A stretch of DNA of 51,927 bases from assembly GCA_009691245.1 (NCBI GenBank), contig SHUM01000021.1, forward strand, positions 1 through 51,927, written 5' to 3'. Numbering within the stretch: position 1 is the stretch's first letter; each line of letters starts with the position of its first letter. This DNA is from Acidobacteriota bacterium. Lineage in GTDB: Bacteria > Acidobacteriota > Terriglobia > 2-12-FULL-54-10. A program made the position numbers and the translations under genes. Below the pieces are notes generated by a model. That model saw only the letters and a program-made list of their open reading frames with translations. It had not been told where the DNA came from and made no database searches. Positions 1,020 to 14,673 of this stretch are shown one piece after another.

Positions 1020-1520
1020 TTACTTTCCTGTGGCCTTGAAGTCGAGGACCTTCAACTGGTAGGGGAGTTTCTTGTCGTTGACGATGTCGCCGCTGGCGAT
1101 CACTTCCTGGCCAAGCGCCAGCTTCGCGGAGTCGGCGGTCAGCGCGTATCTATCTTTCCCTGCCACCAAGACCAGGCCCGTTTCCTGCTTCTCCACTTTG
1201 CCGCGCGCCTGCACATGAAACTTCAAGACGGTGACGCTGGATTGGGCCACGGCTTCCCGCAGCAGAGCGGGCTGGAAGCTGGCGTTCGGTTTGTAGAGCA
1301 CCACGAACTGCTGGCGCTCGATGCTGATGGTTACTTTGTCAACGCCTTCCAGGCGTTTTAGCGCGATCTCCATGACCGCGGCGCAGCTGGGTCAGGTGAT
1401 GCCTTGCGCATCGGCGACCACTCGCTCCACTTGCGCGTGCGCTGCTGGGATGAGCGTGCCGCTGGCCAATACCATGAGCAACGCGAAAGTGGCGAGCGGG
1501 TTCCCGAATCGAAGCTGCAT
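1020..1520 (-). CDS. MerP-like periplasmic heavy-metal-binding protein with in-frame UGA (putative selenocysteine, UxxC)
   Basis: From ATG 1520 (RBS GAGGAG, 7 nt away) to TAA 1020 the frame is open except for one TGA at 1392-1394, giving 166 residues if decoded. Residues 1-29 are a signal peptide ending AHA. The mature protein begins as an HMA/MerP domain. The metal motif reads GIT-U-PSC, so the TGA is codon 43, at the first Cys of the usual GMTCxxC, and Cys46 is retained. Typical HMA sequence follows (LKRLEGVDKVTISIE). Residues ~105-166 form an extra, probably beta-rich, domain. MerP proteins capture Hg(II) in the periplasm and hand it to MerT, whose homologue lies 45 bp upstream. Selenocysteine is inferred from the codon position, the downstream hairpin and the neighbour. 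Without it the gene would be a nonsense pseudogene. ATG 1373 is the false start a gene caller would choose. Confidence 0.82.
1362..1380 (-). promoter_or_regulatory. Candidate bacterial SECIS hairpin in the MerP-like gene
   Basis: Eleven nucleotides after the TGA the sense strand forms CGCGGTC-ATGGA-GATCGCG. This is a 7-bp stem with one G-U pair and a 5-nt loop that starts 18 nt after the UGA. Bacterial SECIS elements have a loop roughly 16-37 nt after the UGA and usually a G early in the loop. Here the strict loop starts AU, but opening the G-U pair exposes GGUC, a motif also seen in the E. coli fdhF loop. SelB recruitment is inference. Confidence 0.55.
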
Positions 1521-1565: not shown

Positions 1566-1898
1566 CTACCGGTAACGGAGCCAGAGCGCGATCCATGCGC
1601 CGATCACGGCTAGGTTGATCAGTACGCTGGTGAACAGAATGGCTTTGATGCCCCAGGTGCGAAGCGTCTTTGGCCGACGCACGTATATCGCAATCTGATA
1701 AGCCAGCGACCCCAGCGCCAGCACAAAGAACACCGGCTGCAGCTTCTCCAGCCAGAACAGACATCCGGCACTGAGCAATCCAAACATTCCAAGTCCTGCC
1801 AGGACTTGCGGGAGCACTCATCAGCTCGGCGTTAGCAGTCCTGCGAAGATCGCTAGAATCCCTACTCGTTTTGGATCCATGTTTTTCATCGATACCAA
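1566..1898 (-). CDS. MerT-like membrane metal transporter with tandem in-frame UGA-UGA (putative Sec-Sec)
   Basis: The frame runs from TTG 1898 (GGAG 8 nt upstream; ATG 1889 and 1880 are alternatives) to TAG 1566, 110 residues, close to the ~116 of MerT. Two consecutive TGA codons (1821-1823, 1818-1820) are the only interruption. The local sequence FAGLLTPS-U-U-VLPQVLAG sits exactly where MerT helix 1 has its vicinal Cys pair, which accepts Hg(II) from MerP and carries it through the inner membrane. Downstream, LEKLQPVFFVLALGSLAY matches the MerT region around helix 2, and residues ~84-107 form helix 3. The MerT second cysteine pair in the cytoplasmic loop is missing. The conserved frame on both sides of the UGAs argues against decay. 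An ordinary caller would start at GTG 1817, after the key residues. Confidence 0.82.
1790..1808 (-). promoter_or_regulatory. Candidate bacterial SECIS hairpin in the MerT-like gene
   Basis: Nine nucleotides after the second UGA the sense strand forms a perfect 8-bp stem, CAAGTCCT-GGC-AGGACTTG, with a GGC triloop. The loop starts 17 nt after the second UGA and 20 nt after the first, inside the usual bacterial SECIS distance. Its first base is G, as in the known consensus. It lies fully within the coding sequence. The role in directing Sec insertion is inferred. Confidence 0.68.
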
Positions 1899-2180: not shown

Positions 2181-2894
2181 TTACAAGGCGGAGAGTTCGT
2201 CGAGCACAGTGCGCTCTTCGCTGTTGAACTGGCTCTGATATTCTTCGCTGGTCATGCGCTTCCCGCGCACCTCCGGGGACATGTCACGCAAGCTGCGGAA
2301 CTCTTCGAGCACAGCCATCCGGCGTTGCGGCGAAAGAACGCGCCAGTGCTTCTCGTAAATTTCTCGCGCCTTGCGCTGCTGCTCGGGGCGCATGTTTCTA
2401 AACACGGAGAGCCGACGGTCCAATGCCCTGCGCTGATCAAGGGGCATTTCCAGCAGCATCCGCAGACGCTCGCGCAGTTCGGCCTGCCGCTCGGGGGTGA
2501 GTTCCTGGAAGCGGCGGTTATTTTCGAGCACGCGCTCGCGGTCCGCGGGCTTCATGTTGCGTAGCCGCTCCAACATGCGCGGTGGAAGCGGCGGGCGCGC
2601 GTCTGGACGATTATTGAGTCGGCCAGCCGGTCCACGAGGTTCGCGTTGGCCCCCTCCCCGCCTTTCGCCTGCACGAGTGTCGGGAGGCCCAGCTTGCCAG
2701 AAAGCCATCCACAGCGGCTCAGCCTGATCTGACTGCTGATCCGAAAAGTAGTAGGACAGAGTCAGGTCTTCAGCAGTCGGCAGCTCAGTTTGCGACTTGG
2801 GCTGAGCTGCAAAGAGAGGAGCCCCGAGGGAGACAACGAGGGAGACCCCGAGGACGGCAATGGCAATCGCATTGTAAATCATCCTCAGGGTCAT
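2181..2894 (-). CDS. DUF3106-like exported protein
   Basis: A 237-residue protein with an N-terminal hydrophobic segment (residues ~7-29, ending LFAA) that looks like a signal peptide. A low-complexity Arg/Gly/Pro linker (~75-105) leads into repeated helical units of the type LTPERQAELRERLRML and LSPQRRMAVLEEFRSL, as in DUF3106 and reminiscent of Spy/CpxP-like LTxxQ proteins. It overlaps the anti-sigma gene by ATGA and is third in a sigma/anti-sigma operon. It may therefore be a periplasmic sensor or effector of that system. The exact role is unknown. Confidence 0.7.
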   Translation of the reverse strand: MTLRMIYNAIAIAVLGVSLVVSLGAPLFAAQPKSQTELPTAEDLTLSYYFSDQQSDQAEPLWMAFWQAGPPDTRAGERRGGGQREPRGPAGRLNNRPDARPPLPPRMLERLRNMKPADRERVLENNRRFQELTPERQAELRERLRMLLEMPLDQRRALDRRLSVFRNMRPEQQRKAREIYEKHWRVLSPQRRMAVLEEFRSLRDMSPEVRGKRMTSEEYQSQFNSEERTVLDELSAL

Positions 2895-3472
2895 GGCGTT
2901 GGGCCTTTCATTTCCTGCAATACCTCATCCTGCAATACTTCGAAATTGCGGAGCATCTCCCAGTCCTCAAGGACCAGCAGGTCCTGATACAGGGCGATAT
3001 CTTCATAGCCGTCAAGTGTAGCGACCACGGGACCGCCTGTTTGCCCTGAATCATCCAGCGCTGTTGATCCAGGGAAATAGCGAACCACGGAAAATGCCGC
3101 GATCATCACAACGGCTAGAGCACTGGGCAGCGCAGGCCGGGCAAGCGGAGCGAGAAAGGCTGCCGCAAAACGGCTCCACATTGATGTTGCGGGGGATGTT
3201 GCGGGGGATGCTGTGGGGGATATTGTCGCAGGCTCCTCCGAACGAATGCGTTGCAGCACCATCTGGTCAAACGAGGTGGATGGCTGAATGGCGGGCCATG
3301 AATCGAGCAGGAGGCTTACGTGGCTCACGTCGCCGGAAAATTCGCGCAAGCGGGCAGTGCACGGAACGCATCCGGAGAGGTGAGCCTCCAGCGAGGAGCG
3401 GGCACCGGCAGCAAGCGTGCCATCCACATAGTCGATGGCCAGATTTTCAAGGTCAACGCATTTCATAATCAT
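2891..3472 (-). CDS. Zinc-finger anti-sigma factor
   Basis: A 193-residue protein. The N-terminal zinc-binding anti-sigma motif His31-x3-Cys35-x2-Cys38 (EAHLSGCVPC) is followed by a linker and one transmembrane helix at ~117-135. A periplasmic tail rich in acidic residues completes it. Such proteins sequester an ECF sigma factor at the membrane until a signal releases it. The start ATG 3472 overlaps the sigma stop as ATGA. ATG 3466 is 9 nt after GGAGG and may be used instead. The linker contains a short SPAT repeat encoded by a 12-15 bp tandem repeat near 3180-3225. Confidence 0.85.
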   Translation of the reverse strand: MIMKCVDLENLAIDYVDGTLAAGARSSLEAHLSGCVPCTARLREFSGDVSHVSLLLDSWPAIQPSTSFDQMVLQRIRSEEPATISPTASPATSPATSMWSRFAAAFLAPLARPALPSALAVVMIAAFSVVRYFPGSTALDDSGQTGGPVVATLDGYEDIALYQDLLVLEDWEMLRNFEVLQDEVLQEMKGPTP

Positions 3473-4110
3473 TTCCCTCCCACCAGATGAGCCAGACGCA
3501 CTCGCAAGGCCTCGTATGCGCGAAACAGGAGCGACTTGACCGCCGATTCCGAGCAGCCGAGCGCCGCGGCGATCTGTCGGTAATCAAGCTCCTGATACTT
3601 ATGCAGGATCACTGCGGTCCGCTGATTCTCCGGCAACTCCGCCACGGCTCTGCGCACTTCCCAACCAAGCGAGCCGGCGACAAGCTGCTCCTCCGCTGTC
3701 GGCTCGGGTGAGCGCAGGCTTCGCGATACGGCGTTCTCCGGATCGTCCAGCGGCTCCATGTTCCGGGCACGACGACCATCGCGCAGATGATTGAGCGCGA
3801 CGTTCGTGGCGATGCAATACAGCCAGGTGGTGAACTTGGCGCTGACTTCATACTTTTCCCGTGCGCGATAGACGCGCAGGAACACGTCCTGCGAAAGTTC
3901 CTCGGCGATGGCGGCGTTGTGAACCATACGATACAGAAAGCCCACAATTGGATCGCGGTGCCGGGACAGCAGTCCGGCGAAGGCAGCTTCGTCTCCCGAC
4001 TTTACCAGCAGCATCAACTCAGTGTCGTTGGGTGGTTCTCCGACGACAAGTTTCGCGACAGTCCCAGTTTTCACCACGGCGCTGACAGCGCCCACTGCCA
4101 CAGCTTCCAT
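3469..4110 (-). CDS. ECF-type RNA polymerase sigma factor (sigma-70 family)
   Basis: A 213-residue protein. Region 2 (~50-112) contains FLYRMVHNAAIAEELSQDVF and FTTWLYCIATNVALNHLRD. Region 4 (~152-205) contains LPENQRTAVILHKYQELDYR and a helix-turn-helix (IAAALGCSESAVKSLLFRA). There is no region 1.1 or 3, typical of group 4 sigma factors. The first ~25 residues are poorly conserved and ATG 4110 lacks a clear RBS, so the true start may be further in. It is co-transcribed with the anti-sigma gene. Target promoters are not identified here. Confidence 0.9.
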   Translation of the reverse strand: MEAVAVGAVSAVVKTGTVAKLVVGEPPNDTELMLLVKSGDEAAFAGLLSRHRDPIVGFLYRMVHNAAIAEELSQDVFLRVYRAREKYEVSAKFTTWLYCIATNVALNHLRDGRRARNMEPLDDPENAVSRSLRSPEPTAEEQLVAGSLGWEVRRAVAELPENQRTAVILHKYQELDYRQIAAALGCSESAVKSLLFRAYEALRVRLAHLVGGK

Positions 4111-14321: not shown

Positions 14322-14673
14322 TGGTGGAGGCGGGGGGAGTTGAACCCCCGTCCGAGTAGGCGCCTGATCGAGAGACTACATGCGTATTCGGTTCGTATTG
14401 CCTTCGCGGCTGCCCACATCGAGCCGACAACAGTGAGCAGCTGCTAGTCCGATAAGTCTCGCCCCAACTCCACGGACCGAGGAGCCAGCGCCAGCCTGCA
14501 AAAGTGTCGTTGTGTTCCGCCCTACAGGCGAAGCGGGCACAACGTCGCTAACAGTTAAGCAGCGAGGGCCAAATCATAATTGGCAATTAAGTTTGTTTCA
14601 CACGATTACGGGTGCGTGAACCCCGGCATGCCTCTCTACCCTGCTTCCTTCCCGTCGAACCCGTTTCGCCCCC
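14322..14673 (-). ncRNA. ssrA: Transfer-messenger RNA (tmRNA)
   Basis: A single-piece tmRNA of 352 nt. The 5' end GGGGGCGAAACGGGTTCGAC is the conserved tmRNA start. The 3' end has the T-arm GGGGGTTCAACTCCCCC and CGCCTCCACCA, which pairs with the 5' acceptor strand. The CCA is encoded. The tag frame at 14584-14555 encodes ANYDLALAA and stops at TAA; with the charged Ala the tag ends in the usual ALAA. A -10 box (TATAAT, 14715-14710) lies ~37 nt before the mature 5' end. The strand after CCA is T-rich, consistent with termination. It rescues stalled ribosomes with SmpB. Confidence 0.96.

Follow-up and report, generated by a model that had tools for sequence, protein, structure and literature searches.

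A MerP-like gene from a soil or groundwater Acidobacteriota genome very probably encodes a selenoprotein, in which an in-frame UGA is predicted from the sequence to be read as selenocysteine (Sec). It lies in the window, the whole stretch of 51,927 nucleotides that was analysed, beside a gene for a MerT-like membrane protein with two adjacent UGA codons. The presence of a UGA at a metal-ligand codon of this HMA gene is confirmed, and the apparent stops of the two genes most likely serve a metal relay that relies on selenium and are not signs of decay.

The MerP-like Gene and Its In-Frame UGA

The following features were recognized:
1020..1520, minus strand: gene of the predicted MerP-like HMA selenoprotein (166 aa; HMA domain, residues 30-100; C-terminal beta domain, residues 97-163)
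1392..1394, minus strand: TGA codon, predicted selenocysteine 43, first metal ligand of UPSC

The reading frame runs from 1520 to 1020 on the minus strand over 166 codons, with the TGA at 1394-1392 as the sole in-frame stop and the rest open. The ORF scan thus agrees with the original prediction of a single TGA in an otherwise open frame with its own ribosome-binding site: the start is preceded by an RBS-like GGAG (AGTGAGGAGAAATTC-ATG). The substitution of the first HMA Cys by UGA was also borne out. The TGA occupies the first Cys position of the HMA CxxC motif (GIT-U-PSC), and the protein reaches 32.1 bits against Pfam HMA (PF00403), above the cut-off of 24.8. The N-terminus, originally called a signal peptide, resembles one when judged by eye, and since pLDDT is low there the signal peptide is treated as putative. 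A plus-strand reading of 1020-1520 contains a stop, makes no sense, and was dropped.

The AlphaFold2 model of the MerP-like protein (mean pLDDT 87, about 95 across most of the mature part) predicts an HMA domain of beta-alpha-beta-beta-alpha-beta topology and, C-terminal to it, a small domain of the all-beta type, which extends the protein beyond the HMA part. Structurally, the model matches HMA proteins, among them MerP (1osd; Z 7.7, rmsd 2.3, 72 residues) and, at Z about 8, copper chaperones. For the C-terminal domain, Pfam gives no more than an OB-fold hint with an E-value of 0.14, and the structural match list is taken up by HMA proteins. The label "MerP-like" holds for fold and motif; it does not hold for the MerP equivalog score, the domain architecture, or membership in a mer operon with merA.

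The MerT-like Partner Gene

The gene adjoining on the upstream side has the following features:
1566..1880, minus strand: MerT-like membrane protein gene (104 aa; translation could also start from the in-frame ATG at 1889)
1818..1823, minus strand: TGATGA, predicted Sec20-Sec21, aligned with the Cys-Cys pair of MerT

The MerT-like protein (1880-1566) carries the motif PS-UU-VLPQVLAGLG, with TGATGA (1823-1818) where MerT has Cys-Cys. Profile-profile comparison aligned the UU with the CC of plasmid MerT at an hhalign probability of 96.4%, while the protein itself remains below the PF02411 cut-off (19.4 vs. 32.9 bits). Its structure model has low confidence (pLDDT 68) and was left out of the argument. 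It had been argued that three UGAs falling on metal-ligand positions are very unlikely to arise from random decay. The chance that all three TGAs (one in MerP, two in MerT), if placed at random, hit these Cys positions was indeed small, about 2e-6 by a crude positional estimate.

In a search of 151 relatives, TGATGA is kept in all 10 close MerT homologues; an eleventh match (G070), very weak and not reaching the motif, is outside this count. Scanning 84,980 named species with a query alignment that starts past the UU pair revealed 13 loci, all with TGATGA; several of these belong to genomes already represented among the 10 close homologues. UGA-UGA is present in every one of the 15 MerT loci examined, even though the search query was without the motif. 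A class-wide search of 399 genomes revealed ten MerT-like carriers. The MerP-like gene is next after the MerT-like gene in 12 of the 13 loci, and across the MerT/MerP loci this pair alone is kept, with no other conserved neighbours. No Cys-Cys version of this MerT subfamily was found among the loci searched, and the MerT-like protein had no match in viral contigs or in plasmids. The subfamily thus always has UGA-UGA, and its MerP partner has Sec or Cys depending on the lineage.

Several other features of the window were recorded. Upstream of the MerT-like gene (2181-4110, minus strand), genes for an ECF sigma factor, a zf-HC2 anti-sigma-like protein and a DUF3106 protein are arranged in a row. 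At its start (1-80), the contig appears to encode the C-terminal part of a transposase of the IS3 type (YNTRRPHSALGY). A tmRNA gene with the tag peptide ANYDLALAA is located at 14322-14673 on the minus strand.

Homologues and Selection

TGA at MerP codon 43 is shared by L025/L067, L026, L027, L066, and L077, and the other homologues have Cys. The same-codon TGA is found in three further genomes of the window's family, in a Luteitalea MAG (L077), and in an Acidobacteriota genome from groundwater that belongs to a class other than the window's (L066, with a sequence identical to G517). Bryobacterales and Sulfopaludibacter-type genomes have Cys there instead, in the form GISCGVC or GISCGTC. In the alignment with these homologues, Cys falls in the UGA column.

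Only TGA or Cys is observed at this codon, and no TAA, TAG, frameshift, or other stop was found in the close homologues. The sister genome G001 is without both the MerT-like and the MerP-like gene. Pairwise dN is lower than dS on either side of the MerP UGA codon (for the window versus L067, 3' of the UGA, dN is 0.42 and dS 1.21), although these figures are only indicative because the synonymous sites are near saturation. Conservation thus continues on both sides of the codon under purifying selection.

Predicted SECIS Hairpins

A hairpin was recognized downstream of the UGA codons in each gene:
1362..1380, minus strand: predicted bacterial SECIS of MerP, CGCGGUC-AUGGA-GAUCGCG, 7 bp, with its start 11 nt 3' of the UGA
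1790..1808, minus strand: predicted SECIS of MerT, CAAGUCC-UGGCA-GGACUUG, 7 bp, almost codon-for-codon conserved

Five of the seven UGA-type MerP genes, and none of the 12 Cys-type genes, have a 7-bp stem capped by a 5-nt loop that starts 11 nt downstream of the UGA. The loop is AUGGA, AUGCA, or CUGGA. The spacing of 11 nt is the same as in the fdhF element of Escherichia coli. The hairpin of the window MerP gene lies close 3' of the UGA and has a G in the apical loop, as the bSECIS criterion describes. The exceptions are L027 (G005; UEISGC), a UGA-type gene without the hairpin, and L002, a paralogue on contig 32 of the window's own genome, whose hairpin is shorter and shifted.

RNAalifold finds the MerP stem unguided, with three compensatory pairs in which both sides are changed. 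All 35 pair cells of the stem are standard, compared with 31-63% if the partner side is displaced by 1-3 columns. Synonymous-codon resampling was done because the hairpins sit in coding sequence, and it gave p = 0.01-0.06 per gene. As individual genes reach only this level, the case for the hairpin rests on the comparison between genes; single-sequence folding is likewise insignificant for the window genes (z = -1.3), and the comparison was therefore relied on instead.

The MerT hairpin is at a fixed distance in all 15 aligned loci. The codons are identical save for a CCGG...CUGG variant, which still pairs (one double change, plus one loop-base change in L077).

Selenocysteine Machinery and Genetic Code

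The machinery for Sec insertion is encoded in the window's own genome. SelA scores 462 bits, SelB reaches 361 bits and is over its cut-off, and tRNA-Sec scores 73 bits and is called SeC with the anticodon TCA (UCA) by ARAGORN. SelD (L021, G000 contig 9:54052-54990, minus strand) is also present and has one in-frame TGA, as do many Sec-containing SelD proteins. TGA is not reassigned genome-wide, because it terminates 8 of the 28 long ORFs of the window.

The relatives' genomes with an HMA match number 49, counted by hand with one partial SelA taken as present. Full-length SelA is found in all 16 of those with TGA in the match, and 12 of the 33 without TGA lack SelA (Fisher p = 0.005, with the kinship of the genomes not corrected for). 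The assembly consists of 96 contigs with 3.25% contamination, and the Sec genes and this contig might therefore come from different organisms, but almost every carrier among the relatives has SelA, which speaks against this.

Paralogues in the Same Genome

This genome encodes two further HMA proteins whose metal motif contains TGA. L002 (1486-2031, minus strand, contig 32) has a single TGA (ALUGSC), and a DUF411 gene (2241-2702) lies nearby. L003 (1330-1866, minus strand, contig 53) has UNFU with two TGAs, and its neighbours are an AhpC/TlpA-like gene and a multicopper oxidase gene. UNFU proteins like L003 are found in several genomes of family f6 (L036, L039, L041, and L042), with the hairpin CGGGGUG...ACACCUCG. 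The neighbouring genes hint at copper for L002 and L003, and are no evidence on the window pair.

Proposed Mechanism and Alternative Explanations

The interpretation of the original prediction, Sec in a UxxC motif, came through the comparisons of homologues, selection, hairpins, and machinery in every case. From these computational results we infer the insertion of selenium, export, and metal binding, as well as the direction of transport and the identity of the metal. tRNA-Sec(UCA), brought by SelB, would read the UGA at codon 43 as Sec, as directed by the downstream hairpin. In the periplasm, the exported HMA protein would use Sec43 and Cys46 to grip a soft thiophilic ion, for example Hg(II) or Cu(I). 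The metal may then be passed to Sec20-Sec21, located in transmembrane helix 1 of the MerT-like neighbour, much as in the relay from MerP to MerT. This metal-relay step is held with moderate confidence. It is somewhat likely that the pair as a whole constitutes a two-protein soft-metal relay on selenium, from the Sec-x-x-Cys of the carrier to the Sec-Sec of the transporter, with both transporter UGAs under one SECIS, selenium obligatory in the transporter, and Sec or Cys in the carrier by lineage. If the relay is real, selenium would be obligatory in the transporter, given that the searches revealed no Cys-Cys form of the subfamily. As no protein of the genome exceeds the MerA cut-off (the best scores 384.6 vs. 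454.45 bits), the classical route of mercury import and reduction is unsupported.

Nonsense mutation in a decaying mer-like pair would be compatible with the IS3-like transposase remnant at the contig end and the absence of both genes from G001, but the recurrence of identical TGAs at these codons in different genera and classes, the close homologues free of other disruptions with dN below dS past the TGA, and the covariation of the hairpin make it extremely improbable. Decoding of the UGA as Cys, Trp, or another residue by a suppressor tRNA or an altered code is hardly more credible. Opal-suppressing tRNA variants occur in nature and the homologues have Cys at this position, but the genome has the complete Sec machinery with tRNA-Sec(UCA) and uses TGA as an ordinary stop, and the hairpin goes with the UGA-type genes, not with the Cys-type genes. 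It could also be supposed that the stop is regulated, so that low selenium yields a truncated product and the switch itself is the function. To our knowledge, every bacterial SECIS-dependent UGA competes with termination. Nevertheless, termination at codon 43 would yield a product scarcely longer than the signal peptide plus the first beta strand, and the Cys-type orthologues produce the full protein constitutively, which renders such a switch very unlikely.

A selenoprotein whose Sec-x-x-Cys performs thiol/selenol redox chemistry instead of metal delivery is also unlikely, though less so. UxxC is a common redox motif among selenoproteins (PMC13188914), and the related UNFU paralogue L003 adjoins a TlpA/AhpC-like thioredoxin gene. 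Against this stand the domain itself, which is HMA and not thioredoxin, and the linked MerT-like partner with Sec at the metal-relay pair.

Selenoproteins are mostly read as redox enzymes, whereas Sec is predicted here at sites that correspond by homology to metal ligands, both in a carrier and in its membrane partner. Because related genomes hold natural Sec and Cys carriers, the question of selenium versus sulfur in metal handling is directly testable. Annotation that calls TGA a stop would truncate or miss both the MerP-like and the MerT-like protein.

Comparison with Known Systems

The window protein shares with MerP (TIGR02052) the HMA fold, the position of CxxC, a putative signal peptide, and the location directly after a MerT-like gene. 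It differs in the predicted Sec for the first Cys and in the additional C-terminal beta domain, and it misses the equivalog cut-off (31.6 vs. 92.55 bits). The window pair is without an adjoining merA and is not in a mer operon. The best NCBIfam match is NF041115 (UxxU metal-binding (seleno)protein), in which Sec likewise forms part of the metal motif of an HMA-type domain. Its motif is, however, UxxU with two Sec, against UxxC with one Sec in the window protein, which scores 44.5 bits against a cut-off of 95; the model covers 74 positions and does not include the C-terminal domain. NF045683 (MerT/CopZ fusion-like heavy metal transport selenoprotein) combines MerT, HMA, and selenocysteine, but in one fused protein instead of the separate genes of the window, whose products score 23.3 and 16.5 against a cut-off of 375.

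Sec in mer-type proteins is already known. The predicted selenoproteins of the GOS survey (PMC2398784) include MerP as well as a putative mercuric transport protein, and the Olavius symbiont survey (PMC13188914), a 2026 inventory of 119 families, includes a UxxU metal-binding protein and a MerT of the C/SxxU type with a single Sec. The MerT of these surveys has one Sec in C/SxxU, in contrast to the Sec-Sec of the window MerT; their MerP comprises two sequences, with no motif given. The 2026 inventory table has no entry for a UxxC HMA carrier or a Sec-Sec MerT (PMC13188914), and a literature search with partial coverage of the relevant papers gave nothing specific on tandem UGA-UGA Sec in bacteria. 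Within this partial coverage of the literature, three features appear to be new: an HMA carrier of the UxxC type that has an additional C-terminal domain, its predicted Sec-Sec MerT partner, in which a single hairpin serves both neighbouring UGAs, and the alternation of Sec and Cys among natural versions of the carrier.
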